This document shows, piece by piece, positions 1,105 through 62,345 of a stretch of DNA of 64,000 bases (the stretch's first letter is position 1; the number at the start of each line of letters is the position of its first letter). Made by a program: the position numbers and the translations under genes. Source of the stretch: Branchiostoma floridae. Lineage: Eukaryota; Chordata; Leptocardii; Amphioxiformes; Branchiostomatidae. The stretch covers positions 12,512,968 to 12,576,967 of the forward strand of contig NC_049986.1 of the NCBI RefSeq assembly GCF_000003815.2. The letters are read 5' to 3'. Below the pieces are notes generated by a model that did not search any database, was not told the DNA's origin, and saw only the letters and a program-made list of their open reading frames with translations.

Positions 1105-1749
1105 TATTTTATTCATGTAGTCCCCGCGGAAGTAAAGAGAACGTAAGCAATCCAATTAAGAACAGGTGAAACCTGACAGGTGATAATTAGGGATGCCTCG
1201 TATGTATTTAAGCGAGAAGAACACGCATACACGAGGCAGATACGAACGTTCGTCACCGGACGAAGGAAGCGCGAGGAAAGCAGCAAGGTTTAACGACCTC
1301 GATGCCAAGGGTATACCACCACCCATCCTGGCCTGACGCGGCTAAGGGACAAGTAGAAGACTTTTCGGTTCGGTTTGCAAAGCCGCACAGTGCCTGGAAA
1401 CTTGCTGCCGCCACGGATAGCGACAGTCCACCAGCCGAGCCGCGTCAGGGCCTTGGGGGAAGAATTTGCGGCAGGTGAACGGAGTTTCTGGCGTAGAATT
1501 GAGCGCTGCAAGTATTGGACATTTTCTGATTGTTTAGTTGCTCTCCATGTTTGCTTTTTGCTATAAGGGCCTTGGTACGAGTATTGCACTGAATTGACCA
1601 TATGTACTGCAAATTTGGACTGGAAGACGGTAATTAACATAACAATCTTGGAACGGAAGGAATTTGGCCACGTAGTTTATACCGATAAGAATTTGGCAAT
1701 GGAATGGAAGCAATTGGCCACGTAATTTTTAACCTGGACGGGGAGTATT

Positions 1750-2170
1750 GATGTAGACAATGTGGCAATGGAAGGAATTCGGCCATGGAATGGATTGGAA
1801 TTTGGGCCATGTAATTGAAGGAATTCGGCCACGGAATGGATTGGAATTTGGCCATGTAATTGAAGGAATTCGGCCACGGAATGGATTAGAATTTGGCCAT
1901 GTAATTGAAGGAATTCGGCCACGGAATGGATTAGAATTTGGCCATGTAATTGAAGGAATTCGGCCACGGAATGGATTAGAATTTGGCCATGTAATTGAAG
2001 GAATTTGGCCATGGAATGGAATGGAATATGGCCATGTAATGGAAAGAAGTTGGCCAAGGAAGGGAAGGAATTTGGCCATGGAAGTTGTAATCTGGACGAA
2101 CCAGGTATATGTAAATAATAGGGTAACGGGAGTAATTTGGCCATGGAATGGAAGGAATTCGGCCATGTAA
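1750..2170. repeat. 45-bp minisatellite, open in both strands
   Basis: At least four near-perfect 45-bp units start at 1817, 1862, 1907 and 1952, with more degenerate copies on both sides. The unit contains two GGCCA blocks (one GGCCATG, one GGCCACG) and internal 15-bp-like periodicity. As 45 is a multiple of three, open frames of about 136-177 codons arise on both strands with a repeating peptide. This is expected of the repeat and I do not regard the frames as genes. Confidence 0.9.
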
Positions 2171-2723
2171 TGTGTAACATGAACTGGGAGTCAGGTAATG
2201 AGGAACACAAAATGGAAGGAATTTACCTATGGAATGGAAAGATTTTGTTCACGTAATTTGTAAGTTTGGTCTTAGAGCACGGTATGAATGAAAACTATGG
2301 TGGAATGGAAGTAGTAAATTCACATGTTATTGAAAAAAAAAAGTGGCATTTGGTTGTGGTGGATTAATGGTACAATAATTACAATGAGTTGCTAAACATT
2401 GCTCGAAGAGGTACCATAAGAACAAATTCGGAAGTTTCAATCCCTTGTGTTGCTATGGTTACTTTGACATGAAAGGGAGCAAGTGTATCGCTACAGTTGA
2501 CATTGCTTATGCAAAGCTGGCAAGTTCCTTCAACAGGCGAAGATGTTGCCGTCTCACTGTACATGTGATGTTGTGTTGAGTGCTAGTTGACATACGGCGG
2601 TACAGAATAGAAATCTCAGACTATGTAAATTAGAAAGACGGGTTCATGATGATTCCTTTTCGCACTTAGGGGAGGTAGTCATGCACTCTGGCGACCAGGT
2701 CATTCTGAGCCTCAGTACCTGGG

Positions 2724-2903
2724 GTGCTGACACGCCTCCTCTCCTCCAAATTTTGTTTCATGCTCGTTAATACTAGGTGATGGTTACGTCACCGGGATGA
2801 AATATCACGTTGGGATATATGGAGTAGTAGACCCTAACCAAAATCACGGGCACCTCTCCCTGCCACCCGTTAAATAGATTTGGAGGGGGAGGCGTGTCAG
2901 CGC
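2724..2903. repeat. Imperfect inverted repeat
   Basis: The stretch GCTGACACGCCTCC at about 2726-2739 reappears inverted at about 2889-2902 (GGAGGCGTGTCAGC), and the match extends to roughly 25 bp per arm with a few mismatches. The loop is about 125 bp. It lies inside the longer copy of the tandem element and may be a foldback remnant. Confidence 0.6.
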
Positions 2904-38593: not shown

Positions 38594-40506
38594 CTAGATT
38601 ATGACACAGCATGTTTTGTTATGTTCAGGTAGGTAGTTGAAGAAGAAAATACAGTTTTTGCCTACATCAGACACAACAAGACTCCTTGGCGTACGGGTCA
38701 CACAGCTTGGGTTTCCCAACCCATCATCTCTATCTGCGATAACCCCCACAAAATTGCAGAACCTGTCAAAGTACTGCAGCCTACCACTGCCCTGGTCAGG
38801 CACCACAAAATCATGGTCATGGGAGTCAATGTAGGTGCCTTGTCCAATAGGACCTTTGAACCTCCCGCCCCCTTGGCCCCACCCACCAATCACGTAAGCC
38901 AGACTAAAGTCTGCCCTGTAGAATAGCAGTTGCTTGGTCATGTTATTTGCAACAGAGAAATAACCAGGCCCAATAGGCTGCTTTGAAGGGGCCTCGCATT
39001 CAGTTGAGAGGCAAATTCTTGCAAAGATGTCTCCTTTTAGGTCAAACAGGACCAGCTCATTTTTGTCTGTAACACCCACTATGATTCCCTGAGCCTGTTC
39101 TAGGTATCGCACAATGGAAGGCTCTTTGAGCTGCCCTTTCCCAAGAGTTTTCAGAAACTTTCCCTTTTTCGTGAACAGTTTAGCAAGCTTCAGACCACTG
39201 TCTAGTACAACCATACGGTCTCTAGTAGGGTGCATAGAAAAACTGCATGGCTTGCTTCCGGTTTCCTCAGGAAGACTTACTGGAAAACTTCTTTTGAATT
39301 TACCTGTCAGGTCAAAGATTTGCATCCGGTGATTATTTTGGTCAAGAACAAAGAGACCTTTGTCTGTAGCAATGACAGCCACAGGCTGATCAAATTCCCC
39401 TTCCTCCTTTCCCTTGTGGCCAAATCGAACTATCTGAATAGGTTTAGGATAGATAGAACCTTTCTTCTTTTTTTCAGAAATGAATTCACCGGAGGTTTCA
39501 CTGTCGTTAGCAATGTCCATGCTACATTCAATCTCCTCTTCCTCTACATCACTGGCTTTACCATCCTCAGTAGTGACACTGCCCAAACTGTAAGAAGCGT
39601 TGGGAGAAGCTGGCACAAAAGTTAGCATCGGGGCAAGCACCTTTTCCTCATCCTTACTTAACACCCCAAGCTCTTTCAAGGCTTCTATACATGACAGANN
39701 NNNNNNNNNNNNNNNNNNNNNNNNNNNNNNNNNNNNNNNNNNNNNNNNNNNNNNNNNNNNNNNNNNNNNNNNNNNNNNNNNNNNNNNNNNNNNNNNNNGT
39801 CATCAGAAAGCACAGAGATGTTGTCCCTACACTGTTTCTCTATCTGCTTGATCAAAGCATCTCTCTGATTCTTCATACTCTCTTCCAACCTCACTATGCT
39901 CTCAGTCGTAGCTTGGATCACATCTTGTATAACAGTTTGCATGTTGGTCTCAATGCTGGACACTGCCTCTCTGATATACTGAGGTTTCTCTCCTAGTGCT
40001 GTCAACTTCTTTTTGGCCTGACTCACTAGCTGGACTAACTCTTCCTCTTTGCCTGGCATTATGTCTTGCAGGCGTTTTGTCTTGTGTTCGTTATGATCTG
40101 TGAAGAGACAGTCTTCACATATCGGAACACTGTGGGTTTCACAGAAGTACCTCATTTCTTTACTTGGATGTACTGGGCATGTTCTGTCATCCTTAAAACT
40201 ACAGTCAGCAGTAGTCTCAGACTCAGGCGTTATGTCGACAAGCTTTTGGGCACTTTCCATTAGATTTCTGATGACAAAGTTTGTCCCGAAGGCTGTAACC
40301 CCCCCACGAGGGACAGACACTTGAAGCCTGCACAGTGGACATGTAATGCGTGACCTGTTCCCTACACAATCCTTCAAACAATCTTTACAAAATGTGTGGT
40401 GGCATGGTAGACTCTTAGGGTCATTATATGTGTTAAGACAAATGCTACATGTTATTATGCTAATGTCTGCTGCAATGTAGTGCCTTTCCAGTGGCCCTGC
40501 TGCCAT
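38594..40506 (-). CDS. TRIM-NHL protein with C-terminal CAAX-like end
   Basis: The ATG at 40506 opens a frame of 236 residues up to an assembly gap, and the same frame resumes on the far side and ends at 38594 (about 365 residues). An N-terminal C3HC4 RING finger (CSICLNTY, CHHTFCKDC, CPLCR) implies ubiquitin E3 activity. A B-box (CPVH...YFCETH...CEDC) and a coiled coil (about residues 140-230) follow. After the gap come an acidic linker (DVEEEEIEC) and NHL-type blades (FDQPVAVIATDKGLFVLDQNNHRMQ style). TRIM proteins are expanded in amphioxus and often antiviral. The last four residues are CVII after another cysteine, fitting a prenylation CAAX box, which I do not know from vertebrate TRIM-NHL proteins. 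It appears single-exon apart from the gap. The exact TRIM subfamily is open. Confidence 0.9.
39699..39798. other. Assembly gap in TRIM-NHL gene
   Basis: 100 N, probably a placeholder length. The missing bases lie in the coiled coil to linker region, so the true protein length is unknown. Confidence 0.99.
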
Positions 40507-40573
40507 TGTGGTCTCGAGTGCAGTGTGTCAGTTCTTCAAAATGGTGAGAAGCTGCTTTCTCTTTCTCTGTCTG

Positions 40574-42673: not shown

Positions 42674-43863
42674 CTAAAGGCCAAATGCCTCAAGGAACTT
42701 GCTGTGTGATGCATCCCAGTACTTTGAGGCCAAAAGTGTCTCTTTCAACCGTCTTGCAGCTTGAAACTCCCTTTTCCCATCCTTTAGAACCTTAATGATC
42801 CTCTTAGCAAGTGTTTTGGCGGCTTCATTGTCATCATCCGCAATCTCCACAATCAGACGATCAAACTCAGGGTCTTGGCTCCTTAAGAACCATGCAAGAC
42901 CAGACTTGTGGGAAACCAGAACTGGTACTCCTGCAGCAATGGCCTCGAGAGCAACCAGTCCAAATGGCTCTGCACGTGACGGCATCAGGACAACGTCGAC
43001 TTTCTGCATGTCTTCGCTCAGCTCTCTCTGTGTGGCGTACTTCAGGGGGGTGAAGTTGAATTTGCCCTTTTCCACATTGGCTTGAATAAGTTTCTTGCTC
43101 TCTGGAAAGTCTTCATGACTGACACCACGGACTCGCCACTTTGTGTTTGGTAGGTGGTCGATCACCATGCTCATGGCCTTTGCTACAAGATCATAGCCTT
43201 TCAGTATTTCTACGCCCATCACCCTGCCAATGGATAGTACCACTTTTGTTTCTGTGTTGACATGTTTCACTTGCACCTTGCTGAAGACGTCAGATGGCTT
43301 AGGCAAAAACTCATGGTGTGGCTTTATCTCTCTTGTCTGACTCTTATAGTAGTCATACATGTATGGGCCTACTGAGAATATCACATCGGCATGTTTTAAG
43401 TCTTCCAGAATGCTGTCACTCTCCTCCCCAATGCTCATCACCTTCTCATCACCCTTGTAGTGACTGGTGTCTTCTGGGATCACGTGAGTGACCTGGACCA
43501 ATTTGGCGTTAGGAAGGCGTTGCTCCTTGATCTGTCTTGCTGCACGGCTTGTGATGTTAACATGGCCGACGACGAAGCCTACCTCTGAAGGCAGGTTTGG
43601 ATAATGGCTCTTGTGCTCCCATGTCAGCCAATCAAGACTGGGTTTTCTCTTGTCTCCATCGGATGTTGTCGGAAAGATCAGCTGAACCCCATCGGCAGCT
43701 GCATCATCCTCATCATCCCTGCTGGCACCTAAGATGGTACTGTAGACCACTGCTCCTTTGGAAACCAGCATGCCTGCCATCTGGCGGTGTATTGTGGAGA
43801 CACCACCTCGAGAGGTGCCATATTCATCATTGATCATCAGCACCACAGGCTTGCTTCCAGATC
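42674..43863 (-). CDS. GT-B (GT4-type) glycosyltransferase C-terminal exon
   Basis: The exon codes 395 residues and ends at the gene's stop. The acceptor at 43863 is in phase with the upstream linker exon. N-terminal features (VVLMINDEYG, RGGVSTIHRQMA) fit the glycine-rich start of GT-B enzymes. IGRVMG...KGYDLVAKA fits the second Rossmann half. EPFGLVALEA carries the E-x7-E signature used for nucleotide-sugar binding, so the domain looks catalytically competent. The substrate is unknown. Glycosyltransferase domains at the C terminus of NLR-type receptors are known in corals, which is a useful parallel. Read alone, an ATG three codons into an upstream extension would exist (43873), but the splice model is preferred. 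Confidence 0.88.
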
Positions 43864-46800
43864 CTTGAAACAATTCAGTGAAGAAGAGTGTAAAGATAAA
43901 TCAACATGTATTCATCTTATAATTTTCAATGATTGAGGCATAAAAAATCAATTTCCCTCTTGGGGTAAAAGAGGGACACATTGGTAAATGGGACAAATTG
44001 GGACAAATGGAAACACATTGTGGTACTTAGCTTCAAGTACATGTATATTGCTATGTATAGTTTGCTGTGCTGTTAATTACATTACATTTACCTACCCTTT
44101 GCTCTGGATTCTGCTCTTATGATGATGTCACAAGGCCCAACTCCAGGTTGAGATGTTTTATTACTGTCACCTTTGATACATAAACATTAACATTATCACA
44201 GTAATTGCAATTATTGGTGAATCTGTAACATATGTTGACAGCAATAATACCAACCAACTTGAAGAATTAATAAACAAGATTCATTCAAAGTTCTGATAAA
44301 GGAATATATACTTACCATCAAGACTAGCATAGTGGTTTTCAGCATAGTGACCCAGCAGAAGTGGCGGCCCTGTAGTGACTTGTTGGTTCCCCATAGGTGA
44401 CAGTATGGTTATGTAGTTGTCTGCATCAATGCTGGACACAATCCTAATGTCTCTGCCTAACATGGAAGCCAAGGCCTGTAGTACGATGTGATCTCCCCAC
44501 ACTCCATCTCGAGACATCTGCTGTAGGTAACCTTCCCAATCTAAATTGCGTACAAAGGCTCGAAGGTGATCACCCTTCTCCTGAGAGAGAGACAGGAGAT
44601 AAAATCAGGGTTAGAAGTAAACAGGTTCATCATAGATAATCATATCTGAAGTTACTGTAAATTATAACAGATAGTCCCAATTGACTTTTTAAAGTTAACA
44701 TTTCCTCCCTTAAAAGATTGTTGAAGATGAATGCATAAAAATATGTTCTTGATATAAATGGCTTTTGTCATGTATAAGAGCTTGTCAATTTTCTTTGGTA
44801 AAATGTTTTATATTCTGAAAATAGAAGGATCTACAAAAAATTATTGTAGCTATTCTCGTCCAACTGTCAGTACAATGCACTACCTGTTCATTTTGCAGAT
44901 AAAACAGACTTACATTGTGAGGATGTTGCCTCAAGTAGCCAACCACATCTTGTCTGAGCTGTGAGTGACTGATCGCTGTGCTTCCAGTGCGCACAAGCTG
45001 GTCAGATACAGCATGGAAGAGACAGTTCCCATCTTTGGGCACATCGGGTCGGAGCGTGAGGCCTGACTCCATCAGGTGGTCTCTCAGTCTACTTTGTTCA
45101 TCTCCTGGCTGCATCTCTATAGACATACTTCTGAACCTTTCCCATACATTCTCTGAGGCAACATATGATCAGAAAACAGTTAAGAAAGTGTTGGTCTGTC
45201 TGACATGCATGTTCTCATGTATTGAACCCACATTTTTTTTAAATTTGTTGTACTGCCATTTGATCAATTTTGCACATCATCTATATTGATTGTGTTCATC
45301 AGGCTCTGTGCATTACAGTCCCTTGAAATGTGTGTTGCATGAACTGTACGTTGTCTTCCTTATTGGATTACCAGGTTTTGGCTGTGTGAAAGGAAAAGTG
45401 ACTTTGTCAAGTTATATGCCAATAATTTTAAGACTTACATGATTTTCATACTTAACATTGATTCCCGAGATCCATGGAAATATTATCCTTGATAATGAAG
45501 CATTCAGTCGCTTTCAAAACTGTTGTTTTACCTGAATATCGAGGTTGTTTCTCCATCATGATCTCTTCAGGAGCTGGGCTTTTTCCACACTCCTCAAGTG
45601 CCCTCTTTCTCCGCTGTTGCCACTGCGCTGGGGCTAGTTTGTGTTGCAGAGACAAAAAGACAGTATACGTAATGCCTCAATATGAAAAATTGCCAAATCA
45701 ATTATGCGAAATATGCCAAATCAATTTATTATGTAAACCTTCTTAAGTGGTCACTGTAGACCTAAACCAATGCAGAAAACACAGTCATCTGAGATAAGGG
45801 AAGTACGCTTTCTCGTCTGCATTACAACCATTTTAAGTAACATCATGCATAATTATAGAAACATACTTGTGTGTGGGTGAATCAGTCTGGGGTCAATCTC
45901 ATCCCATGTCTTTGGACACACCACAATGCCTCCTGGTGTCTTGTCCAGAACAGCTCCGGAGAACCGGTGAGGTTTGTCCACCCCAAGCTTCAGACAGTGT
46001 GGGCACACCACTCGAACACAGTACAGTACACCTGGCCACTGCTGTAGGAGCTCCTTTGTTGCATTGATGATCAAGACCATAATACCCCATGCTTCCTTCA
46101 GTTTCTTGTTTTGTGTTTGCACAGAAATTAGGATTTCTTCACTTCTTTCCTTTGGTTCAAGTTGCACCAAAAGTTCAAATTTGTTCTTTCCCACCACACT
46201 GACTGCTTGAATGCCATATTGCCAGTCTTTACGATATTTGATGAATTTGTTCAGTTTGACTGAAAGAGTTTCAAACAGACCTACAGGGCAATAGTTTTGC
46301 AGTTGGAAGACCACCATGAGCACAACGTCATCAGGTTGAATTTCTCTGGGCATGCAAGTGGCAATAGCTGTTAGCAACCATGGAAAACGATACACAGGAG
46401 GCACAGACTGAATGGTGTATGGATCAGCATCCTCACATTGTGGCATTTCAAAACAAAGGTCAAACTTCTGAAGTAAACAGATTAACATAACTTCCTCTTC
46501 ACCTGATAGTTTCATATCTTTCCATAAACATTGCAACATCTGTTTTGAAACAATTCCTCGAGTTGAGAAATCCTCGACCATATCATCAAAGTCAGCATCA
46601 GATACTGAAGCAAATCGTTCATCAAATCTGTCAACTGGNNNNNNNNNNNNNNNNNNNNNNNNNNNNNNNNNNNNNNNNNNNNNNNNNNNNNNNNNNNNNN
46701 NNNNNNNNNNNNNNNNNNNNNNNNNNNNNNNNNNNNNNGAGTCAAAACCCTCTAATGGATGACACCAGGTCCAAGCGGCTTGCCAGCTTCTAGTTTAAAA

Positions 46801-49800
46801 CATCATCTATCTCTGACAAATATTTCTTGAGACTCTCTACCTCAGCAATTTCAATCTGCTTGGTTTTCTGCATTATCAATTCTGCTTTCCTCTCTATCTC
46901 TTCTGGCTCACACCTGTCTATGTGTGTAGCAACAATTCTGAGTACTGGTTTGGAGTCAAGACGAGTTTTTATCACATTCAACCAATATTTAACAGCAGCA
47001 TCAAATGATGATGATATGAAAGCCTCTAGATCCACAACTATAAGGTACAGTGCAGCCTTGCTAAAGAAGAACTGATGGGTTAAATGGTAGATCTTATGAC
47101 CACCAAAATCATGCATCAGAACCTGTATACTATCTTGTAGCCGAGTCGGATGAACTTCTATTCCTGCTGTTCTATCTGTGATATCTGTCAAATTTGATTT
47201 TCCCAGTCTGATGGCATTGCATAAGCTGGTTTTACCAGCTGCTACCTCACCAAGCAGAAGGGCCTTGACACGTGGTACTTCAATAGCTTTGGATAGATTC
47301 AGCTCTTCAAAATATGCAACAATTCCCTCCATCCCTTGTTCAAACACTTCAATTGGGGGCTGTTCTATAGGATTGCCATATATCTGTTCCTTTCCAAACT
47401 GACAAAGTTTGTGGAGTTTACCAAACTGTGTTGGCAATGCTGTGATATTGTTCTCCTCGAGGCTCAGATACTCTAGATTTTGCAGCTCACAAATGGTGTT
47501 TGGTAGAGTCTCAATTTTATTACCAGCAATGTTGAACTCAGTCAGGTTCCCAAACTCAAACATTTCCTCTGGTATTGCTTTCAGGTAATTTGATGAAATG
47601 TTAAGTGAGGTTAAGTTTACCAGTCTTGTAAAAGAACTGGGAAGTTCCTTAAGTTGGTTACTACGTAGATTAAGAACAATCAAGCTTAAAAGGTCCCCAA
47701 TTTTTTCTGGTAGCTCTGTTAAACTGTTTTCAGATATGTCAAGTGTTTGCAAGTATTTAAGCCTACATATGGATGAGGGAATACTTACAAGACTATTGCA
47801 AGATAGGTAAATTTCTTTCAAACAAAGCAGGTTACATAGTGATTTTGGAACTGCTTTTAAGCAGTTTGCAGAGAGTCTTAGTTTAGAAAGCTTCTTCAAT
47901 GTTCCTATACTATCTGGTAGCTGTTCAATTTGGTTATGTTCAAGAATCAACTCTTCAAGTTCTTGAAGATAGCCAATGGACTGTGGTAAACTGTTAAGAC
48001 TGTTACTAGAAAGGTTTATGTATTTAAGCTCTTTCATTCTGCCAATATCATCTGGAAGACTTTGTATTGCATTTGCTTTGTATTGATCAAGTCTGTTGAA
48101 TGACACATCAAGGTATTCCAATGATAGAAGATTGCTAATCCTCACTGGTAAGTTAGATAACTTGTTGTCTTGTAATGACAGACATCTAAGTGAGGTAATG
48201 TTGCATAGTTCATCTGGTAGGTCTTCAATTTTGTTTCTGCTTAGATCAAGGTGGGTCAAATTTACCATCAGTCCAATCTCCTCTGACACATTAACTAGGT
48301 TGCAGTTAGAAATGTTCAGTTCCTGAAGAGCAGTTTGTTGACAGACAAATTTTGGAAAGTCTTGGCTAATGTTGTAATACTTATTGCAACTGATATTCAT
48401 TCTCATCAGATTTCCAGGTAATTCTATTTCATAGGATTTGGGATCAAGGTCATAAAAGGCAACACTTAGCTCCTGTAAGGTGGAGATGACACCTAGATTT
48501 AGTATCTGGTCATCACCAAGTCCACTTAGGTCCATTTTGATTATGTCTCCATTGTATGTAAATCCATCAGGAGGGTTTATGATAAACAGGTCATACCCGC
48601 ATTGCAGCTTGACAACACCATGCTGCAACTCCTCCAGAGCAATCACCACTGGTGATATTAAGTTTTCATCCCTACCGTATGCCTCACAACATGTTTTATG
48701 ATCCAAATAAACAGCTCTTACTTGCACAGACGCTGATAACTGCTTAGCTGTGTTCCTTGGAATAGAGACAAGTTGCCAAAAGTCTACTGAAAGTTCTTGT
48801 AACTGTCCAAGTTCTAAAAGAAGGTCTAACTTATAGCAACCACAGTGAAACAATTTCAGACTTTTCAAAGAATCCAAGCATCTGAATGAGCCAGGTAAAT
48901 TAGTGAGTCTGTTAAGTGATACGTCAAGATATTCCAAGGAGAGAAGACTACCAATCATGCCAGGTAAGCTGGACAACTCATTGTCCTGCAGGTAAAGCCA
49001 CCTGAGTGTGGTAATGCGGCACAGGGAATTAGGAAGACATTGAATATTGTTTTTGCTAAGATTGAGGTAGGTCAAATTGACCAATTGTCCAATCTCTTCC
49101 GGCACACACTGTAGGCTGTACTTAGACATGTTGAGCTCCTGAAGTGCACTATGATTAAGGATGATAGCAGGAAAATCTTGATTACAATACATTCTTTCAT
49201 TACAACTGATATTTGGTTGGGTCAGATAATCAGGTAGTACTTTGTTAGATATGACATTAAGGTCACAACAAAGTGCAGCATCCAGCTCAAGTATAAAGGC
49301 ACAACTGAAAGCTATTTTGAGTATTTTGTTTTGTAATGTGCTTCCACTAAGATCCATTTTAACTATGTCATGACTGTTTCTGTGGGGACACTGTAGCAGT
49401 TGTACAACACCATGCTGTAACTCATTGGGAGCAACTATTGGTAAATCCTCTCCATCAATACAGTACTTTTTATAACATGTCTCATAATCTAGGGAGACAG
49501 ATTTGATTTGTAGATAACCTGGAAACTGAACAGCTGTCTGCTGTGGAATTGACACCAGCTGCCAAGCATCTATTGTTAAGACTTTCAATGCTTTAAGTTG
49601 AGGGAGAAAGTCCAACTGATAGCAATTACAGTGGAGCAAGTTGAGCTTGTTTATAGAACTTAACTCTTTGAATGACTCAGGTAAAGAATGAAGTTTGTTA
49701 AATGATACATCAAGGTATTCCAAATAGAATAGATTGCCAATCATCCCTGGTAATCTAGATAATTCATTGTCTTGAAGTGAAAGCCATCTAAGTGAGGTAA

Positions 49801-52800
49801 TGTTACACAGCTCATCAGGAAGGTCTTTGATCCTGTTTCTGCTCAGATCTAGATGAGTCAAGTTTAGCAGCTGTCCAATACCTTTTGACACATACTGCAG
49901 GTTGCAGTTAGACATGTTGAGCTCCTGAAGTGCACTTTGCTGACAAAAGACTTGGGGAAAATCAAGGTCATCATTAGCAGACATGCTTGTTTCAGTCAAA
50001 CTCATATCTAGTCTAGTCAGATTAACTGGTAACTCCATTTCTTCTATCAGGTCACGGCATTCATGATGATAAGCTCCTTTAGGGTATGAATGACTCCTAT
50101 ATTGAGTATACATTCATTATAAGATTCACATCCTCTTAAGTCCATTCTGATAATGTCTCCATTGTATTTGAAGTCATCGGGAGGGGTTAGCCAAAGATTT
50201 TCACTGCATTGAAGTTTTACAGTCCCATGTCGCAACTCCTCTAATGCAATCCCATCTGATGGTATGTCTTCTTCATTCTCACATCATCTCTCCTGACATG
50301 CCTCTTCATCTAAGTAAACTACTTCAATCTGTATGAAATCAGGTAACTGTTCAGCTGTCTGCTGTTTGATAGACACCAGCTGCCAAAAGTCTACTGTTAG
50401 TTCTGTCAACTGTTTCAGTTCAGAGAGAAAGTCCAACTGATAACAACCACAGTGGAATAGTTTCAACGTACTCATGCAATTCAACAGTTTGACAGCATTA
50501 GGTAAATAATCAATCATATTGATGGATACATCAAGATATTCCAAAGAGAATAGGTTGCCAATCCTCTCTGGTAAGCGAGACAACTTATTATGCTGTAATG
50601 AAAGCCCTTTAAGTGAGGTAATGTTACACAGCTTATCAGGCAGGTCTTCAATCCTATTTCTGCTGAGATCTAGATGTGTCAAATTTACCAGCTGTCCAAT
50701 ATCTTCTGGCACACAATGTAGTCCACATTTAGACAAAGTGAGTTCCTGAAGTGCACATTGCTGATAGATGACTTGGAGAAAATCAAGCTCATATTTACCA
50801 AACATGCCTGACAAAATTGGACTTATACATGTATCTACATGTAGTCTAGTAAGATTAACTGGTAACTCTATTTCTTTTATCACGTGAAAGTCGGCGATCG
50901 TGATGATAAGCTCCTTTAGAGTATTGATGACTCCTATAATGAGTGTTATGATATGATAAAATTCACGTCCTCTCAAATCCATTCTAATAATGTCTCCGTT
51001 GTATTTGAAGTCATCAGGAGGGGTTACAGAAAGATCTTTACTCCACCGCAGTTTTATGATCCCATGTCGCAAATCTTCTAATGCAATCCCATCTGATGGT
51101 ATGTCTAGTTCATACTCACAGAATCTCTCCTGACATGCCTCATTATCTAAGTAAACTATTTCAATCTGTATGAAATCAGGTAACTTTTCAGCTGTCTGCT
51201 GTTTGATAGACACCAGCTGCCAAAAGTCTACTGTTAGTTCTGTCAACTGTTTCAGTTCAGAAAGAAAGTCCAACTGATAACAACCACAGTGGAATAGCTT
51301 CAACGTACTCAGACAATTCAACAGTTTGATGGAATTAGGTAAATAATCAATCGTATTCATGGATACATCAAGATATTCCAAAGAAAATAAATTGCCGATC
51401 CTCTCTGGTAAGCTGGATAACTTATTTTGTTGCAATGAAAGCCATTTAAGTGAGGTAATGTTGCACAGCTTATCAGGAAGATCTTCAATGCTGTTTTTGC
51501 TGAGATCTAGGTGCATCAAATTTACCAGCTGTCCAATATTTTCTGGCACACATTGTAGTCCACATTTAGACAAATTGAGATCCAGAAGTGCACTTTGCTG
51601 ACTGACTATTTTGGAGAAATCATCATCAAATACGCCATGATTATATGCGCAATTACTAGTATAACACTGATGTAAACTCATATTTAGTCTAGTCAGATTC
51701 ACGGGTAATTCTATTCCTTTTAGGTCTGTATCAAGGTTACGGAAGGTAAGGATAAGCTCCTGTAGGGTATGAATGACACTTAGATTGAGTGTAAAGCCAT
51801 CATCAAGATGACTTCCACCCAACTCCATTTTGATAATATCTCCATTGTATCTAAAGTCATCAGGAGGGATTATTTGCAACTGATTATCACAGCATTGCAG
51901 CTTTATTACACCATGCATTAAATCTTCTAATGAAATCCTGTCTGATTCTACATATCCTTCACACTCAAGGAACATCTCTTGACATTTCCTTTTATCTAAA
52001 CAAACTACTTCAATTTGCACAGAACCTGGTAACTGTTCAGCTATCTGCCGTTGTATGGAGACCAGCTGCCACAAGTCCACTGTTAGTTCTTTCAACTGCG
52101 TAAGTTCAGACAGAAAGTCCATTTGATAGCAACCACAGTGGAACATTGTCAGTTTCTGCAGTGATGACAGTTTGGCCATTGATACAGGAAGCATCATATC
52201 TGTGATATAATTCATTGATATATTTAACTCTGTCAATGAGGGAAAACCTCCTATTGAATCAAGTAAAGTCTGAAGATTGCAATTTGACAAATTCAATTGC
52301 CTAATGGTATCCTTAAACCAACATATAATACATGTCTGCTTGAGTTCACACTGTAAATGTTCACTGAACCCACCTTCAGTCATTTCTTTTGTGTCAATTG
52401 TAACTTTCAAATATCCGTCATCTTTTCTTGCAATGAAGTGAGCTCCAGTTCTAGCAGAAGTAGGGTTATCATTACATTTAACAGTCACAGTCCATTCTAT
52501 ATTCTTCCATGGCATGGTCTTCAACTCAGACACATGGCTCAGATCCTGTAGCCTTTTTATATCCCAACAGAGAGTGTTGAGGTTTGTAAGTCTTGCAATG
52601 TCAACAGGAAAGGATGCAATATTGTTTTCTAGCAGATTTAAGTAAATAAGACTTTGTGTTTGTAAAACACCCTCTGGTATCATTTGAAATTTATTATAGG
52701 AAAAATCAAGGTGCTTCAAATTTGGAAACTTTGTAGCAGGTAGCTGTTGGACAGAATTGTAAGACATGTTAAAAATCTCCAATGAAAGTAATTCATGTAC

Positions 52801-54475
52801 CCCTGGGGGAATGGACTGGAGTTTGTTATGGGACACATTGAGAATCCTCAGTTTTGACAGAAGGTGTATCTCTTCTGGAAGAGCTGACAACAAATTGTGA
52901 CTAAGGTCAAGGTGTGTTAGTCTAGAGGGCCCCACCACTGGACTGCTGACTGAAAATGCTTTGATCCTGTTATGACTGAGTAGTATAGCTGAAGGGTGAT
53001 GAATATCAAAGAACTCTGGTAAAGTGTAAAGTCCTATACCTGAGAGGTCAATGTCACCCTTACAAATGTCAGCAGCATTGATTTCATATCCCTGACTCAA
53101 GGAAATTACAAGCTTTCCTTCCATCTCCTCAAAATACCATTCATCCTTATCTGTTAAATGTACATATTGTCTATGATCAACGCAGACTGTCACTCTTCTT
53201 TCCATACAAAAGTCTGACATGAGTTGATGTTCAGAGTCTTGGATAGGGTTGCCTGTGAAATGTATCTCTTGAAGTACAGGAAATGCACCATGTTTCAAAA
53301 ATGGCACAAGTGAAATTTGGTTGTGCTTTAAATTAAGATGCACAATCTTAACTAAATCCTCACAATTATCTGGCAAGCTGGTAATGGAATTACAGGCTAC
53401 ATCCAATGTTTGTAGCTCTGTGAGCTCTACAATAGATAAAGGGAGCCTCACCAGTTGGTTATCAAATACTTTGAGATGTTTTAACTTTTTAAGGTTGGAA
53501 ATGCTCTCTGGAATTTCTGTTATTGAATTGTCACAAAGATTCAATTCCTCCAGATTGACAAGACTTTTGAAAACTGATTCTGGCAGTGATGAAATTCTGT
53601 TACAACTTAAGTGAAGAATCCTAAGCTTCTTAAGGTTACCAATATTTCCTGGCAAATAGCCAAGGTCACAAACAGACAAGTTTAACTCCTCTAAATCTGA
53701 CAACTGGCAAAGCTCCTGAGGTAGAGTCTGGAGAGACTGGTTCCACCTGAGATTGAGCACCTTTAGTGATAACAGATTCCCTATCAATGGAAACACTTCT
53801 GACAGTTCATTATCTGAAACATCAAGCTCCTCAATACTCCGGAAGGAAAATACCTGCTCGGGTATGGTGACAAGGGAATTGTTTCGATAAATTAACACTT
53901 TCAGTGCCTGCATGTTTTCCATTCCTTTAGGAAACACCTGTATTGTGTTACCAGATATGTTCAATTCTTCAAGATTTGATAAAGATGAGATAGAGTCAGG
54001 TAGGTGGGAGAGTTTGTTGCAACTGATGTCCAAATATCTAAGCTGAAACAACAGACCTATGTCTGTGGGTATGACTTTGATGATGTTACGTTGGAAATTT
54101 AGGGCCTGTATGTCATGTTGCTGGAATACCTGGTCTGGCAGACTTGACATTTTCCTCCCAGACAGGTCTAGCTCAAGGAGTCCATCATCATTTTTTCTGG
54201 GTTTTATGATTTGCTCCTCAGTCTCATCGCTGTCTGTTTCTCTGTTATGACAACAAATAAAATGCCATGCTGTATTCATGAACCATGATCCAATAATACA
54301 GAAGAGTCTAGCTTGCAGAGCATCATTAGTTTGGCAAATTGGAAAATCAGGAAATATGATGTTAGAAAATGTTTGGTACTCACCTTAACATAGGGCCAGG
54401 ATTTTGCTCAATGTCTCCTGCCTGTAGTAGAAGTTTGTGTGCCATCATGAACCAGACCAACAGGCAAGACATCAT
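42674..54475 (-). CDS. Giant 2A-LRR-Roc-COR-OTU-glycosyltransferase protein
   Basis: Exons: 54475-54384, 54241-46790 (with lesions), gap 46738-46639, 46638-45867, 45633-45532, 45152-44914, 44580-44316, 44170-44096 and 43863-42674. Every testable junction is GT-AG and phase-compatible, which argues for one transcript. The order is an N-terminal 2A leader, more than 2400 residues of leucine-rich repeats and repeat-associated segments, Roc GTPase, COR, basic linker, OTU protease, linker and GT-B glycosyltransferase, well over 3000 residues in all. LRR-Roc-COR defines the ROCO family (LRRK, MASL1, MFHAS relatives). The OTU and glycosyltransferase additions are unusual. An in-frame TGA (50284), a frameshift (about 50060) and a TAG (46790) break the model, so it may be a pseudogene, a mis-sequenced allele or split genes. 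Function as an intracellular sensor is inferred from domains only. Confidence 0.85.
44096..44170 (-). CDS. 25-codon linker exon between OTU and glycosyltransferase
   Basis: The acceptor ATCAAAG|GTGACAG and donor AAAGG|GTAGGT give an open 75-base exon. It carries two bases, 24 codons and one base, which fits both neighbours. It codes a short polar linker (SNKTSQPGVGPCDIII). Its inclusion is inferred from phase; skipping it also keeps the frame, as it is 75 bp long. Confidence 0.6.
44316..45152 (-). CDS. OTU-type deubiquitinase domain (two exons)
   Basis: Exons 45152-44914 and 44580-44316 join at AAT|GAG in frame. The first has PKDGNCLFHAVSDQL, containing the OTU catalytic D-G-N-C block with the nucleophile cysteine. 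The second has WGDHIVLQALASMLGRDIRI and GHYAENHYASLDG, with the catalytic histidine. All core residues are present, so an active ubiquitin protease is likely. Size (about 170 residues) fits an OTU core. It would remove ubiquitin from targets of the LRR-Roc sensor, though this is inference. Confidence 0.9.
45532..45633 (-). CDS. 34-codon basic linker exon between COR and OTU
   Basis: The acceptor AACTAG|CCCCAG and donor TTCAG|GTAAAA fit the phases on both sides. The peptide (AQWQQRRKRALEECGK) is basic and resembles a bipartite nuclear or membrane-contact stretch, but no function is shown. Confidence 0.7.
45867..46638 (-). CDS. COR domain exon (partial at gap)
   Basis: From the gap edge the frame runs open for about 257 residues to a donor at 45867 (ACAA|GTATGT). 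Features typical of COR are STRGIVSKQMLQ, LLQKFDLCFEMP, the PVYRFPWLL region and CPVGLFETLSVKLNKF. COR mediates dimerisation of Roc GTPases in ROCO proteins. The first residues of the domain are lost in the gap. Confidence 0.85.
46639..46738. other. Assembly gap between Roc and COR
   Basis: 100 N, placeholder length. The Roc frame meets a TAG at 46790-46792 and a TGA just before the gap, so an intron or error may be hidden here. Confidence 0.99.
46790..47275 (-). CDS. Roc GTPase domain
   Basis: The end of the long LRR exon codes VKALLLGEVAAGKTSLCNA, with a P-loop GEVAAGKT. It is followed by HDFGGHKIYHLTHQFFF, where DxxG forms the G3 motif. ATHIDRCEPEE supplies the T-H-x-D that often replaces NKxD in ROCO proteins. 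Upstream, NPIEQPPIEVFEQG matches the usual LRR-Roc junction. All main GTP-binding motifs are intact, so GTP binding is likely. The frame stops at 46790, 51 bases before the gap. Confidence 0.9.
   Translation of the reverse strand, partial: PRVKALLLGEVAAGKTSLCNAIRLGKSNLTDITDRTAGIEVHPTRLQDSIQVLMHDFGGHKIYHLTHQFFFSKAALYLIVVDLEAFISSSFDAAVKYWLNVIKTRLDSKPVLRIVATHIDRCEPEEIERKAELIMQKTKQIEIAEVESLKKYLSEIDDVLN
46790..54241 (-). CDS. Very long LRR exon with five internal module copies
   Basis: After acceptor AACAG|AGAAACAG at 54241 the frame enters canonical leucine-rich repeats (LxxLxLSxNxLxxLP) for about 2400 residues. The N-terminal third is regular LRRs. From about 52600 a module of some 790-845 bp recurs five times. 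Each has several LRRs, then FHCGCYQLDFLSEL, then FWQLVSI, then PPDDFKYNGDIIKMDL; the HCxCY motif falls near 52130, 51285, 50450, 49625 and 48840. The frame is broken by TGA at 50284-50286 (sister copy has TTC) and by a net one-base shift near 50060 (four bases fewer than the sister copy). Everything else is open, with no other stops in over 7 kb. Confidence 0.85.
54384..54475 (-). CDS. First coding exon: hydrophobic leader plus 2A motif
   Basis: Two adjacent ATGs (54475, 54472) start a 30-codon exon. The leader is hydrophobic (SCLLVWFMMAHKLLL) and runs into AGDIEQNPGP at 54392-54421, a complete 2A consensus D-x-E-x-N-P-G-P. The donor AAG|GTGAGT follows three codons later. The acceptor at 54241 keeps the frame (ML-R-ETDSDE) after a 142-bp intron. 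In 2A, the ribosome skips the Gly-Pro bond, releasing the upstream peptide and starting a new chain with proline. N-terminal 2A leaders that double as signal sequences are known in sea urchin NLR-type proteins. No in-frame ATG lies upstream in this exon's open frame. Confidence 0.85.
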
Positions 54476-54571: not shown

Positions 54572-57454
54572 ATTGGAGTGACCAGAGTCATCATCAGAAA
54601 TTTAAAGTAACTACTTGTGATTACCTTTACTTGGTGGATACAAATACTATGTCTATAACCCATGACTAGATCTAAGAGTGTCTGTCAGTGAATGAATGAT
54701 ATGGGAGTGACTGGCACTCAAATTCTTTTTATCATAGCAATCATATGAAGAGTGTAACAGTTACAGATAGCAGTACCGGTACATGTAGTTTTCACCATAT
54801 TATGTACTGGCAGTGAGATACAAGAAAATCACTGTAAAGGCAAATGTATGGGTCTTTTTGTATCCATGTGTACATGTAGGTAACAAGTTAAACATTAAAA
54901 AACACCAATAGGGAGATATATTATTAAACAAGTGCTGAAAAAGACTTGCAATACAAGGCAGAGCAAGATACTTGCTAGGAAGTTGCAAGAAAATGATGAG
55001 TCTTACCCGACTACTTTGCCTTGCCCATCTCCCATCACCTTGTCCCAAATCTGTGCCAGGATGACCCCCACCAGCAGGGCTGATGCCTGGGACCAACATC
55101 GGACAGACCTGGGAGCCGGGTTTTGGAAACAACCAATCCGAGCCCGGTATGTAGCCAAGTCCACACCCATGGTGTTCTTAGCTTACACTGTGGATTGCAA
55201 TGGAATGGCCATTGGATGATATCAAATGCAAGATATCCATGATTGACACATTATAGCCATGGGTGTTTATGTCAAATACTGGAGAATCAAGCAGTAAGTG
55301 GACTGCATGCCTCTCATTCTTTATTAGGTTTACCCATAAAGTATTAACGTTCTGCCATTTACCACAACATGAATTGGAATAAAATTTTCCTCATTGACTG
55401 ATATGCAAATCTATTCCTAATTCACACCGTTGGGACTTGGCATATAATGTTGATCTTCATCAAAGTTACCCACAGGGAAAAAAAAACATTCATTTCATCC
55501 ATCATCAAAACATTTATTTATCTCATCCTGACTTCAAAAGAAAACTGGTAGAGGTCTGATGATGTCACTTCTTCTGGAGTGCCTTTAGGATTTCCACTTC
55601 TCACTTAGGCAGCCTCACTTAGTATTCAAGCATTTTTTCCGTCCTACATTTGCTCTGGGGGTCAAGGAAAAATATAGTTTTGTGTGACCTTTGAACCCTT
55701 GCCAGGTATGTCGTTTCATCTCAAAAGCCGTGACGGATTTGTTGGGCTTTGTTCCGAACTTTAGGCTGGCAGATGAAAGTTAACAAAACTAATGACTATG
55801 TATTACAGGCCATTGCAGATTAACTCAATAGTGTTATACATATAGCTGTTACTGACGGTAACTTTTGGTCGTTCAATGTCAAAGTGACATTGGAACAACT
55901 GCGAACAACATCGGAAAACATGTCCGCCGTTTAGAACAAAGGTGCACCGACTGCCTGCCAAGTTCCCAGTGGATGGTTCAACTCCAACCCTATTGTTTAT
56001 TTACAATGTAACCCTCAATAATGAGGGATAGTTAAGGAATATATCATGGAACTATTACCTTGTATAGTCATGGCAACGGAGGACGGTTTTGTGGGGCATT
56101 CAGGACGGATGCAGAACACCTGGGAACACGTTCTTAAGGTTCCGCTTTCGTGTGTAATGTTATCCCTCACCGGGGATTCCCCTCCGTCACTGGAAATCAC
56201 CAATATATATATATATGTACAGGTTTATGTCATCGGTGGAAGGGACATTCATTTCTGGATTATTTTACCAGATACAGGTAGCCTGTAAATCCAAGTCTTC
56301 CCTTTGATTGAAAACTGTCTTCTAGGTAACGTTACCTTTGATGATATAGCACATGTATTTCATCGCATTGGTGACTGACCAAATTACACCCGGAAGTGCG
56401 AAGTACCATTACGCTGCCGACTCACCTTGACAACAAGTAGTTCTAGTTCAACTTCGTAGCAAAAAAAACACATCTATAAGAATGTTTCTTAAATTGTTCA
56501 TCTTTTTTTGAAGATATACGCAATTAATCTTTCTTCATTTTTGCCCCAAAACGATATCCGTACAGTAGGTGATGCTTACAGGTGTCTTTTGTCGAGTTTG
56601 AAAGTCCTCTTTTCATCTTCAACACTTATGGATAAATATTGATCCTCAGAATTACCATGTCACGCCCTTCACACCCAATAGCTTTCGATTCGCGGCCTTC
56701 CACGAGCGCTGGGGGAGCGCTGATTCGCGGTTCAATATCATGGGCCCAGGTTCTTTTGCCGCGAAGGGTTTGTATGGCGAGCCCAGACACGACCTTTGCG
56801 GCATAAAAACTAACCCTGGCCCAAGAATGACATGTCAATACACATGTAGACAATCCGTCTCGCCTGAATATTTGCCTTTTTATGGACTCGTCAACAGAAC
56901 GATACAATGACTCAATAAGCATTGCAATTTTTAAAAAGCATCAGAAATTCAATGATTGAACACTAATTACAGCAGTATTCACATATAACAGACTTGAAAA
57001 GTTTCTGAAAACCTTTTACTGTTCGCGAATCTGACTCAGAAGTACATTCCTGGTAGCTGTGCTACTAAAGAACTGAAAGAATCTAGATGCAATACATAGC
57101 GGTTGAAATGGGGGTATGATAAGAAACATCAAAGGTGGGTGTCCCAAACACCACTAACGTTACTACAAAAGTACAAACTTTAACTATGATTCGCCTCTGC
57201 TCTGATCTCAAATTGTAGCTACTATATCAACAAGTCCAACATATTAGCATTAACAGTCATCTCCTGTGTTGGTAAATGACATAGTGGAAAGGTTTACTAG
57301 CTGCATCCAAGACGAGCACAACACATGGTCAAGGCTGTTAAAAATCCACTCACACAATACACAGCGCTGCTAATGTTGCATCAAGAAAAAAAGTATTTTT
57401 AAAGACAATATCCGTCAACAGTATATGACTTCCAAAAACAACCAGGTTAAACCC
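54572..57454. other. Spacer between ROCO 5' end and UEV-Death 3' end
   Basis: It contains the presumed ROCO promoter and 5' leader (possible acceptor near 54490 or 54569) and the UEV-Death 3' UTR. An imperfect inverted repeat (TGGGCC...TTTTGCCGC against GCGGCATAAAAA...GGCCCA) is at about 56741-56824, and a short (AT)n run at about 56203. I found no gene. Confidence 0.5.
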
Positions 57455-60400
57455 TCACATAAGGAATGCATACTTATCAACATCAACATTCTGCTCTTTT
57501 AAAAATTTACATAGTCTTTCTCTTGTCGCTCTGTCTCCTGCTCTGTCTCTCCAGTCGTCTAACATGTAGAAGACTTGTTTCCGCAGTTTGCTGTGCTTGT
57601 CCTTGTACCTGTGCACGTCAGCTGGTGTGGAGCCCAGGCTTATGGCGATTTGTTGCCACTCGTTTCCCAGGTTACGGGAAAGCTTCTTCAGGTCCTTATG
57701 ACTGACCCTCTTACCACTTTCTGTTGAACCTAAATTACAAGAAACAAAATGTTTATTTCAAGCCTTCTTCTGATGTCTTTATACTGTGCGAAGATTTGAT
57801 AATGCACTTTGTTCAGTAACATCGAAAAAATCGCAATATCTGACAAATTGTTCATAGCCGCAAAAGAAAAGCCAATGTTTCTTTAGTTTCGTTACAATAT
57901 TGCAGTTTACGATGGTCTATTTTCCCAGATGGACGCCATTGATTTAAAACTCTAGCTCTTACCGTGTTTAGGAGGTGGTGTGCTCTTCAACCGCCGTGCG
58001 GAGCGTTGTCGTGGGAAACAACCCCCAGATTCTTCTTCCATGTAGTCTTCATCTGACGGAAAACAAAATCATAAACTAACATGGGAAAGTGTGAGCAGAG
58101 TTTCTTTCAGTTTAAGATGATTTACGAAATGTAGGTATTCGTTGCAGATGATGATTTCTCTGCGCTTACACTGTTTGTAATATAGGTGAACATCATACTG
58201 ATATACTTAACACTTACCACTAAAAGAAGCATGCTTGTTTGCTTCTCGCTTCCTCTGTTCTGTTGTTGACTTTGCCGTCCTTGCATCTTTTTTGCCTTTC
58301 GGTGTCTCAAAATCTTTCTTATTTTGTCTTGTTGTCTGGACTTCTACCTTGGCGAGGAGGGGTGTTGTGACATCTTCATTGGTTTTCTCATCCTTCTCAT
58401 CTGATGTTTTTGGCACATTTGGCTCTTTGCTGCCATCTGTCCTCTCATCGTTCGCCATCTTATCATCTTTGGTTGCCACTTCTTTGGCCTTTGGCGTTAA
58501 CTGTCTGTTCTCGTCTGGTTTCTGTGCTGTTTCCAGGCTCTGCACTGTTTCACGAACTACATGTACATCTACTTCTGTCGTTTCCTGTTTCGTTGTCTTT
58601 TCTTCAACAGTTGTGTTGTTTCCGTCATTTTCATTGGTCTTTTTGCTCACATCTTCCGTAGGCTCTTCGAATATGTCGCCAATTCTGTGAAGATGACAAT
58701 AGGTAATCTGTAATCATGATTTCGATGAAGCAACTTGTTGTTAGCATGAACGCTCATCTGTGTCGGTACATCCCACATGCATTGTATAGGCTAGTCATTT
58801 TTTTTAGTTCATTACAAATGTGTTGCTATGTGAAACCACCATCTCTGCAAGAGTGCATTATCATCTAGGAACACATTTTTAATACAAACCCACCCGTACA
58901 GCCCTGACGGAAGAGACGTGTATCTGGTCCTTCTCAATGGCTGTGGGGACGGCAGTCCAGCTGTCAACATATAATACAACAAACTTTACCATGAGTCTTA
59001 CAACATCGACACAATCAGTGCTACTTAGATCAGTGTACCAACTTTAGTGTTTTATGGAGAAATGTTCAGTCTATTTAATACGATGAAAAATACTACTTAG
59101 GAAGGTTTCACTTCTCAGGATGTCGTATACCTGCAAGTTTATAAATCTGGTAGAGGAGATATCACTGATATAGGTAGACGTTTATCAAGTATTCCCGTAC
59201 CTGGAGAACTTCCTTTCTTGACCTCTAGACTGGCGAGCACCTCATCAGTGACTGGAGGCCGTTCTCCGAAATGTGCTGTGATGACTTCTATCAGGGTGGT
59301 CAGGTTGGACGTGCGCTGGAATGCAAGCAAGCAAGGTAAATGATTGGACGCGTTTTCGGAGTGTTGATTCAGGCGTAACGTTATATAATTAAGGTACGTT
59401 CGTTGAACTGTCAAGTTGTCAAAGCCATCACTTCTCTGACAATTCGAAGGGACTGTTTCAAATCATGTAGAGTGCAGTTTAATCTTGTACAGCGTTTTCT
59501 ATGTCTCAGTAATTGAGATAGCGACGTCGACTCTGTCCCTTGAAACTTCATTTAAACATGGTCAAGCACATGATATGACAAAGTGACACGTGTAACTAAT
59601 TTTTTTAAAAGTTTTATTACGTTCGAAAACCATAACAGGTTGGCCTTGGTACCATCCGGGTAGTAGTTTGTTCCTATATTCGCTTCTGTAATAGCAGAGA
59701 AGCAACTGTATATATTGTATGATAAATGTTGGAGCGAGAGGCGACTGTATGTAGTGTATAATAAACGTCTCAGCGAACTTCTATCCGGATAGTACCAACG
59801 CTATGGACAGATATGAGCCTTTATAAAACTCACATAGTTCCAGTCCTCCAGGTAGGGGAAGGTTATCTTCCCGCTCGTCTCCACACACAGGCACACCTTA
59901 CTCTCCACAATAGGCGTCGTGCCTGTATCGGTGCACGTGGGCCGTACCAGACAGGTGGGAGGGTCGTGGGGGAACTTCCGTGGCAGCACGAACACCATCG
60001 GGATGCCGTAATGTTTGCCTGTGTTGTAGAGAAGGAAAACATTCTAACATCCAAAACTCGGTAACAACGTAACCATCTTTCTAGGTTGGAACAATAGATG
60101 TAACGTTATCTTAAGATCACTGATATTGATACTAAATGTAATGCGTACATCACGCAGCACCCATACAATCTATTGATGTTGGGTCCATATCAACAAGTAT
60201 GATTTCATTCTTTTGATGAGTTTATACACATTGTGATGCATACCTTTGTGCCTGATAGGAACAGCACCCTCCAAGCAAAGCCGGACTGTAGATCCGATGT
60301 GACCGGCTTCCGCCAGACCTGCGCAAGGACGTGCATTGTTTACAGCTTTGTAACTTATACCGTTTGTTTTCATTTATCATAACTGCCTTGTTCTTAATTA

Positions 60401-61067
60401 GAATTTTGTCCTCTTCGCGTCTTTTACTTATACCATAGACTTCACGTATGTTTATAAGACAGCACAATCTAGCATTTACATGATGGAGCATAAGTTAAGT
60501 ATGCTTCTGTAAACCACTGAATATGTTAAAACAATGAATGTTTGTAAACCTTAACTAGTATTTTTCCATTGAACACAACACCGTGTACCTTCTCCTACAG
60601 CTGCTTCAAGAGTGGGAAACCTGGAGATAACATGAGCGGTCTCCTCTCTGGTCTTGCTGCTGTACGTGTAGTTCGTCTGTTGACAATGACAAATTGCAGT
60701 TGGTCAGGCAGTCATTTGGTTTACCTTTGACAGTAATTGGCATTATTTCAAAGGACAGAGATGAAAACTATCGTAATTTTATCACACAATCACAACGCGT
60801 ACGGAACAAAACATCCAACATTGCTAGACTGTATACCTGCCTATGTTTTGGTATCGTACAACTTCAAATTCTGAATCCATCACTCAAATGTACACATACA
60901 TTGTTAAACTATGACTATGTTTACGGTATAGATTGGCTCAGCTGCAGCTACTCGTCAAAGTTCTGTGCCTGACGTACCCTGATACGATCCACGTCGTGAC
61001 TATTGAGGCGCAATACTTCAGACACAGTCTGCGTTCTCCGTGTGTATGGCAATGGGCGGTACGCCAT
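57455..61067 (-). CDS. UEV (TSG101-like) plus Death domain protein
   Basis: Nine coding exons (61067-60978, 60676-60589, 60318-60244, 60018-59834, 59315-59201, 58960-58894, 58684-58218, 58052-57963, 57729-57455) give 483 aa with every phase consistent. Residues about 15-175 are a UEV: PIRHKGKHYGIPMVF, PHDPPTCLVRPT and GKITFPYLEDWNY match the TSG101 ubiquitin E2 variant fold. The E2 catalytic cysteine is not expected and not seen, so it probably binds ubiquitin or a peptide motif. Residues about 210-390 are Lys/Glu/Thr-rich and low complexity. Residues about 400-480 are a Death domain (LSRNLGNEWQQIAISLG, KLRKQVFYMLDDWRDRAG, RLCKFLKEQ). TSG101's coiled coil and steadiness box are absent. This fusion suggests a ubiquitin-reading death-fold adaptor, by inference. 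The start ATG at 61067 sits seven bases after the acceptor. Confidence 0.9.
59644..59800. mobile_element. MITE with CCTTGGTACCATCCGGGTAG ends
   Basis: The left end at 59644-59663 pairs with the right end at 59781-59800 (CTATCCGGATAGTACCAACG) with about 16 of 20 matches. The interior carries two diverged copies of ACTGTATGTAGTGTATAATAAA. It lies between exons 5 and 6 of the UEV-Death gene. Confidence 0.65.
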
Positions 61068-62345
61068 GGTTAACCTGCAGACGTGGGGACAGCGACTATC
61101 AGCCTTGGTTGGTTGAAAAATGCCCCCAAAGAACAAAACAATACAATTAAGGCGTGTACACACACACGTTCACGGATTAAGTGTCAGTCATGGAGTATAC
61201 AACCATGTAGTTTTGTTATGTGGAACATTTTTTTTTATGCAAGGGATCGCGCGGGAGGATTTATAGAATCATAGAAATGTGAACCTGTACATTTGTACTT
61301 TTTACTCAAATACAAGTGACGGCTGTGCTATGCATGCTCTTACGTTACATATAATACCAGTAGTATTCTATAAAACTAACAGGGTGCATCGACGTTGCGT
61401 ACTAGGTTTGGAATGTGAGGATTAATAATTACCTAAACTATAGTCTCTGTGTGTGGCGATGTTTGAATGAGAATTGTAGGCTCGCTCCCTGCCATTGGCA
61501 CGGGCTACCGACCTGTTTCACAAACTCACATTCATGTCGCATTACTACTAACTTTTAGTGTCAGAATGAAACTCTACGTAGAGTTTCAGCCGGATATGAT
61601 AGGAAACCAAAGATATGAATAGCTATTTTGGGTATGGTAAGTGCACGTTTTTCAATTTTGCCAGCATGTCAAGTTAAGTTTTCTGAACGCTGCTCAGTGT
61701 TGCCACTGTTCAGCCGCCAATGGAGGTCATGTTGGTCAAGTCTTCGTCTTTTATCTTTTATAAAAGTTGGTAACGTTTAATGCAGATTCTAGACACAATA
61801 CTTACCGTTTACAAACATAACCCTCCCACTCAAAAGCCTGCACACTAGGCTAACCAGACGCTACATGATGAAAAATTCCACCGTAACTAATATATTTACG
61901 GAGCTACTCTGTGCTAACGGCGATATGTTTGCACTGTACATACAGCCATGACTCGCCAATACAGCTCATTGTTGCAAACTTAAATCGTAATAGAGATAAA
62001 ACGGTGTCCTCTCTTCTTCAGATATCATGGATACCGCTAGCTGATTGGTCGTTGGAAGGATTGCAAATTTTGACATTCTTGCCAAGTTCTTCTAAGATGG
62101 AAACGTAGCCTACTTATCAGAACACAACGACAGCAAATTAAACATGTACACGCGTAACCGCCATTTTATGGTGCAGCTGCCATATCACTCTTGGGTTAAG
62201 TTATTCCAATGAAGACCAAAGCATGGAAACTCACGTTAGCGTTTAGAATAGCTATAGATGCAGGGTTATAAGGCATGCCATGTCGTGAATGATAGTATAG
62301 AAATGATAATGGAGAAATAGCGTTGCAACGAGACCTAGAACTCAC

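Follow-up and report, generated by a model that had tools for sequence, protein, structure and literature searches.

Does the lancelet Branchiostoma floridae encode a ROCO protein in which LRR, Roc and COR domains are followed by both an OTU deubiquitinase and a glycosyltransferase, and what could such a protein be used for? We addressed this question for a minus-strand gene within a stretch of 64,000 nucleotides (the window, G000:C8:12512968-12576967 of a 513.4 Mb assembly) and searched the whole assembly for relatives. A single LRR-Roc-COR-OTU-GT4 gene, as proposed in a first-pass annotation of this DNA, is supported as a gene model by in-phase exons from COR to GT4 and by the same domain order at other loci, between which the exon phases are conserved. 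We propose, with a probability of roughly 0.7, that the gene belongs to a shuffled family of intracellular immune-receptor-like proteins, in which a GTPase-switched LRR sensor would deploy an effector composed of OTU and GT4. The copy in the window itself is probably a misassembled gene or a pseudogene.

Gene model and sister loci

Pfam matches, obtained from sequence pieces rather than from whole joined proteins, follow one another in the window in the order LRR, Roc, COR, OTU and GT4 glycosyltransferase (Table 1). The Roc match (3.4e-15) displays the P-loop GEVAAGKT as well as THID and is followed by COR-B (3.7e-9). The OTU domain is recovered in two exon pieces (2.5e-9 and 5.6e-7), which reach 2.5e-17 when joined across their intron, and the last domain matches the GT4-conflict family PF20706 at 1.2e-74. 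From COR to the stop codon of GT4, six exons connect in phase (1, 1, 0, 1, 1) through GT..AG introns of 145-379 bases, with zero internal stops. Both sets of signature residues given in the first-pass annotation could be confirmed at codon level: the OTU residues D (codon 45033-45031), C (45024-45022) and H (44334-44332), which we take to be catalytic, align in position with those of OTUD5 and OTUD1 and are retained in all seven OTUs compared, and the glutamates of the GT4 E-x7-E signature (42970-42968 and 42946-42944), E298 and E306, are retained by each of the 18 copies aligned. The predicted GT4 model (pLDDT 88) consists of two Rossmann domains in a GT-B fold and was matched by Foldseek to MshA (7e-16, TM about 0.64, 17% identity) and also to BshA, both retaining GT4 enzymes.

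The domain order is not confined to the window, contrary to the outcome that would have refuted the first-pass claim, since three further loci, all on C14 (L030, L032 and L036), carry it in full, giving four with the window copy, and a fifth on C10 (L033) features two Roc pieces (0.0025 and 6.6e-7), COR-A (2.9e-18), OTU and GT4, with no LRR found in the stretch examined. In L030, one uninterrupted frame runs for 1645 codons free of stops, a length that begins with the open frame and not with a Met, and Roc and COR are contiguous on one exon. Exon joining was scripted for the window copy and for L030, where phases of 1, 1, 0, 1 were obtained from a model without the second linker exon, and was checked by eye for L032 and L036, where the phases equal those of the window copy. 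Small linker exons separate COR from OTU at an equivalent position in all four loci. In L036, the GT4 exon (1676-2856, minus strand) changes frame near SRAEPFG, within its own most conserved motif.

An initial scan of the genome contigs with a single protein query returned no relative; the GT4 counts given here rest on 57 scored exons out of 102 candidates in the genome. At six of these 57 exons, a same-strand OTU lies upstream at a distance below 5 kb, compared to 0.02 expected and to zero cases of any other arrangement. At least 21 of the 57 have Roc upstream on the same strand at up to 25 kb, 16 of them at up to 10 kb, and one has Roc on the opposite strand within 25 kb, a count based on 48 hand-picked Roc matches of 147, in which some distances of 14-16 kb may span two genes. 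Between close copies, the ratio of nonsynonymous to synonymous substitution rates (dN/dS) was about 0.32-0.41 for OTU (four pairs) and about 0.20-0.26 for GT4 (seven pairs), all being point estimates from rounded values that fit purifying selection.

The slot between COR and the glycosyltransferase

The OTU exons constitute a symmetric phase 1-1 cassette (by script in the window copy and L030, by eye in L032 and L036). As judged from exon neighbourhood, Death and FIIND lie between COR and GT4 at L010 (C3) and L020 (C191), COR-A, Death and FIIND precede GT4 at L023 (C17), and OTU-GT4 is found downstream of ankyrin exons (L034) and of a DED exon (L035). Death and FIIND pieces recur at other loci of the cluster. 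LRR-Roc-COR and GT4 are present at L029 and L031, where no OTU was detected at E 0.01. Several tandem, near-identical FIIND-type exon pieces were also observed within one ROCO-GT4 locus (L016:4206-5643).

L030 is a mosaic: its OTU shares 84% identity with that of L032, the latter carrying two extra intron codons in this comparison, and its GT4 shares 89% with L029 but 48% with L032. From these identities, the OTU module of L030 descends apart from its neighbouring modules. Taking the phase-1 introns flanking OTU into account, exon shuffling or gene conversion is therefore the simplest account, and we consider it likely that exon shuffling built the family, to which losses of OTU, for example from L029, may add. 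A GT4 tree of 18 rows, six of them OTU-GT4, from which L036 was excluded because of its frame change near SRAEPFG, requires five changes of the OTU label, also if only starred branches are counted. Shuffled labels required as few changes in 291 of 500 cases (mean 5.2); the OTU label is therefore scattered, and the number of OTU gains is not shown by the tree.

Compared to known systems, the first-pass claim of a new kind of effector proved too strong, because bacterial LRR-Roc-COR proteins with a C-terminal GT4 and animal GT4 fusions have already been described (PMC8195603, partial text). According to the same partial text, bacterial LRR-AP-GTPase (Roc)-COR proteins carry at least 24 variable C-terminal domains, GT4 among them, GT4-TRADD-N fusions occur in cephalochordates, hemichordates and cnidarians, GT4 is expanded in animals, with more than 500 paralogs in Acropora, and GT4 fusions and expansions are known from cephalochordates, hemichordates and corals. 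The lancelet gene shares LRR, Roc, COR and the subsequent GT4 with the bacterial AP-GTPase (ROCO) conflict proteins, while differing in its animal host, the OTU between COR and GT4, its introns and a 2A-like leader. With the metazoan fusion proteins it has in common the GT4 family, which combines there with various partners in proteins presumed to act in immunity, whereas its own partner is LRR-Roc-COR plus OTU; an animal ROCO-GT4 protein was not found in the partial text of PMC8195603, and the word OTU has zero occurrences in the text of that paper. In the open-licence PMC literature we found no report of a ROCO-OTU fusion, nor of OTU-GT4 on an animal ROCO protein. By sequence and by the alignment of D, C and H, the domain resembles OTUD1/OTUD5-type deubiquitinases, from which it is nevertheless distant (E 5e-6 to 2e-5) and set apart by its fusion to a receptor and GT4. 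The new part is the addition of OTU together with the swappable slot. A bacterial source of the entire ROCO-OTU-GT4 gene was considered and rejected, as Roc, COR, LRR and OTU gave no match at E 0.01 in 72 prokaryote loci, which were chosen by GT4 motifs and searched with animal queries, so that bacterial ROCO-GT4 proteins may be missed.

Proposed function and rival explanations

We propose a model in which the LRRs would recognise a product of an invader or a modified host protein, upon which the GTP state of Roc-COR would open the protein. The bound target or the receptor complex could then be deubiquitinated by the OTU domain, and GT4 would subsequently add a sugar from a nucleotide-sugar donor, leaving the target disabled or shielded. 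By analogy with the leader of a sea urchin NLR, the 2A-like peptide might split the product into a secretory form, made without skipping, and a cytosolic form, made with skipping. The protein may attack an invader or may control host ubiquitin signals. As a tentative and more far-reaching possibility, lancelets could own combinatorial receptors, in which phase-1 shuffling joins sensors (LRR-Roc-COR, ankyrin or DED) to OTU or Death-FIIND and to a constant GT4, with one molecule erasing ubiquitin and writing sugar on the same target and a 2A leader directing part of the product of some genes into the secretory route.

Such a protein would set an animal counterpart beside the reported bacterial LRR-Roc-COR-GT4 conflict proteins, and ROCO proteins, the family of LRRK2, would gain an enzymatic output besides the kinase. 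With a deubiquitinase and a sugar transferase side by side, the prediction is that a single target would have one modification replaced by another, and L030 provides a clean test gene for identifying the substrates of GT4 domains in immune proteins.

Several points weigh against the proposed reading. The gene model is known here from genomic sequence alone, the animal searches cover one genome, and the partial texts of the literature covered contain no tested activity for animal GT4-conflict domains. COR-A stays below the Pfam cut-off in the window copy (3.9e-5, in a region holding the 100-N gap) and in L030 as well. For both OTU pairs that include the window copy dS is saturated, giving no estimate of selection. 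The bacterial parallel is weak, since six bacterial GT4 proteins that were scanned showed CATRA-N in one case, NACHT below cut-off in another and no other Pfam domain in the remaining four. Finally, the LRR-Roc-COR part of the window copy is not a single open frame in this assembly because of the TGA, the frame change, the TAG and the gap, all of which were missed in the first-pass annotation; the latter two separate Roc from COR, which share one frame in L030. The in-phase junctions of the first-pass annotation are confirmed from COR to GT4.

With three interruptions, the window copy may therefore be a pseudogene of the family or misassembled, and we see the chances of a pseudogene as evenly balanced. 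TGA, frame change and TAG all fall within one exon, the tandem first exon upstream is devoid of the 2A motif, and no second copy of the window LRR stretch that could be the other haplotype was found in the assembly. An assembly error could instead be favoured by the gap in that same exon and by tandem LRR units that are 69-85% identical, and the OTU and GT4 exons are intact together with their splice sites and triad residues, although the lack of damage in the shorter 3' part says little in either direction. An intron covering the lesions at 50286-50047 is thought unlikely, because the intervening sequence reads in frame like the adjacent LRR units (by eye). In a rival reading, neighbouring genes look fused: OTU-GT4 would be a gene of its own behind a ROCO gene, or the domains would be divided among three genes. 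The joining deduced from genomic sequence would then be misleading, and OTU-GT4 could indeed stand alone, as it also occurs behind ankyrin and DED exons. We regard this as highly improbable in view of the frame that stays open from COR through GT4 in both the window copy and L030, the phases that L032 and L036 share with them (by eye), the short introns of the window copy (145 to 379 bases), the linker exons at the same place between COR and OTU, and the Death-FIIND pair filling the same slot in sister genes. A role outside defence, as a metabolic GT4 or as a scaffold devoid of catalysis, is likewise unlikely, if somewhat less so, for the glycosyltransferase. Its fold is that of the metabolic enzymes MshA and BshA, and PF20706 matches occur in all 14 control genomes; this reading is opposed by the 57 scored copies in one genome, by the conservation of fold and E-x7-E, and by the partners seen among the GT4 loci examined (Roc-COR, Death, FIIND, DED, ankyrin and LRR).

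Feature coordinates, leader exon and neighbouring genes

Table 1. Positions in the window of the exons, domains and lesions of the ROCO-OTU-GT4 gene, listed along the minus strand.
Feature	Positions	Strand	Remarks
Tandem second copy of first exon (MGVDLATYRARIGCF...), without NPGP	55024..55170	-	55% identity to L037 exon, residues 1-49
First exon, ATG 54475, MMSCLLVWFMMAHKLLLQAGDIEQNPGP-MLR, hydrophobic leader with 2A-like motif at end	54384..54475	-	phase-2 donor GTGAGT
LRR part of giant exon	47267..54241	-	acceptor aacag before 54241; internal tandem units 69-85% identical; interrupted
In-frame TGA	50284..50286	-	
Frame change somewhere within	50047..50113	-	reading shifts to frame of open reading frame 46790-50113
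Roc GTPase domain	46916..47266	-	Pfam 3.4e-15, GEVAAGKT
In-frame TAG between Roc and COR	46790..46792	-	
100-N assembly gap where COR-A is expected	46639..46738		
COR exon, portion beyond gap	45867..46638	-	phase-1 donor
Linker exon, phase 1-1	45532..45633	-	
OTU exon a, Asp and Cys of triad (DGNC)	44914..45152	-	
OTU exon b, His of triad (NHY)	44316..44580	-	
Second linker exon, phase 1-1	44096..44170	-	
GT4-conflict glycosyltransferase exon, TAG at end	42674..43863	-	

The gene model begins with a separate first exon, whose ATG coincides with the end coordinate of the first-pass annotation, where the exon went unmentioned. It encodes GDIEQNPGP, which fits the pattern D(V/I)ExNPGP, and has a phase-2 junction with the LRR exon. 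In sea urchins, 85 of 241 NLRs likewise carry an N-terminal D(V/I)ExNPGP peptide ahead of an LRR immune receptor, and others have demonstrated both skipping and signal-sequence activity for an NLR leader of this type (PMC4981915, partial text). The lancelet leader differs in preceding a ROCO instead of a NACHT protein and in residing on its own exon, and its skipping is predicted. Across the genome the pattern has 51 sites, many of which look like repeats of few sequences, versus zero for the reversed control. By eye, Roc follows within 8 kb downstream of at least two of the 51 sites, namely that of the window and one at C14:18605531. The latter belongs to an exon (C14:18605393) that is homologous to the first exon of the window, precedes another Roc by about 3 kb and has a phase-2 junction by eye. 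The pattern does not occur in C14:1.9-2.05 Mb, so that L030 lacks a leader of this kind as far as the search shows. Another homologous 2A first exon, the third, was observed at G000:C16:10021978-10022139, and a 2239-codon open frame containing a distant OTU, possibly a transposon, follows it within about 1 kb. A retrotransposon origin of the OTU module finds no support in what was tested; the OTU in this frame (L038) looks different by eye.

Among the neighbouring genes of the window, upstream minus-strand exons at 57458-61070 encode an unusual pair, a TSG101-like UEV domain (2.1e-15) and a Death domain (6.1e-9). The Death exon (57458-57757) is unlikely to be the N-terminus of the ROCO gene, because its frame ends in its own stop. 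On the other side, a TRIM-like gene on the minus strand at 38594-40527, with RING, B-box and NHL below cut-off, contains an internal 100-N gap.

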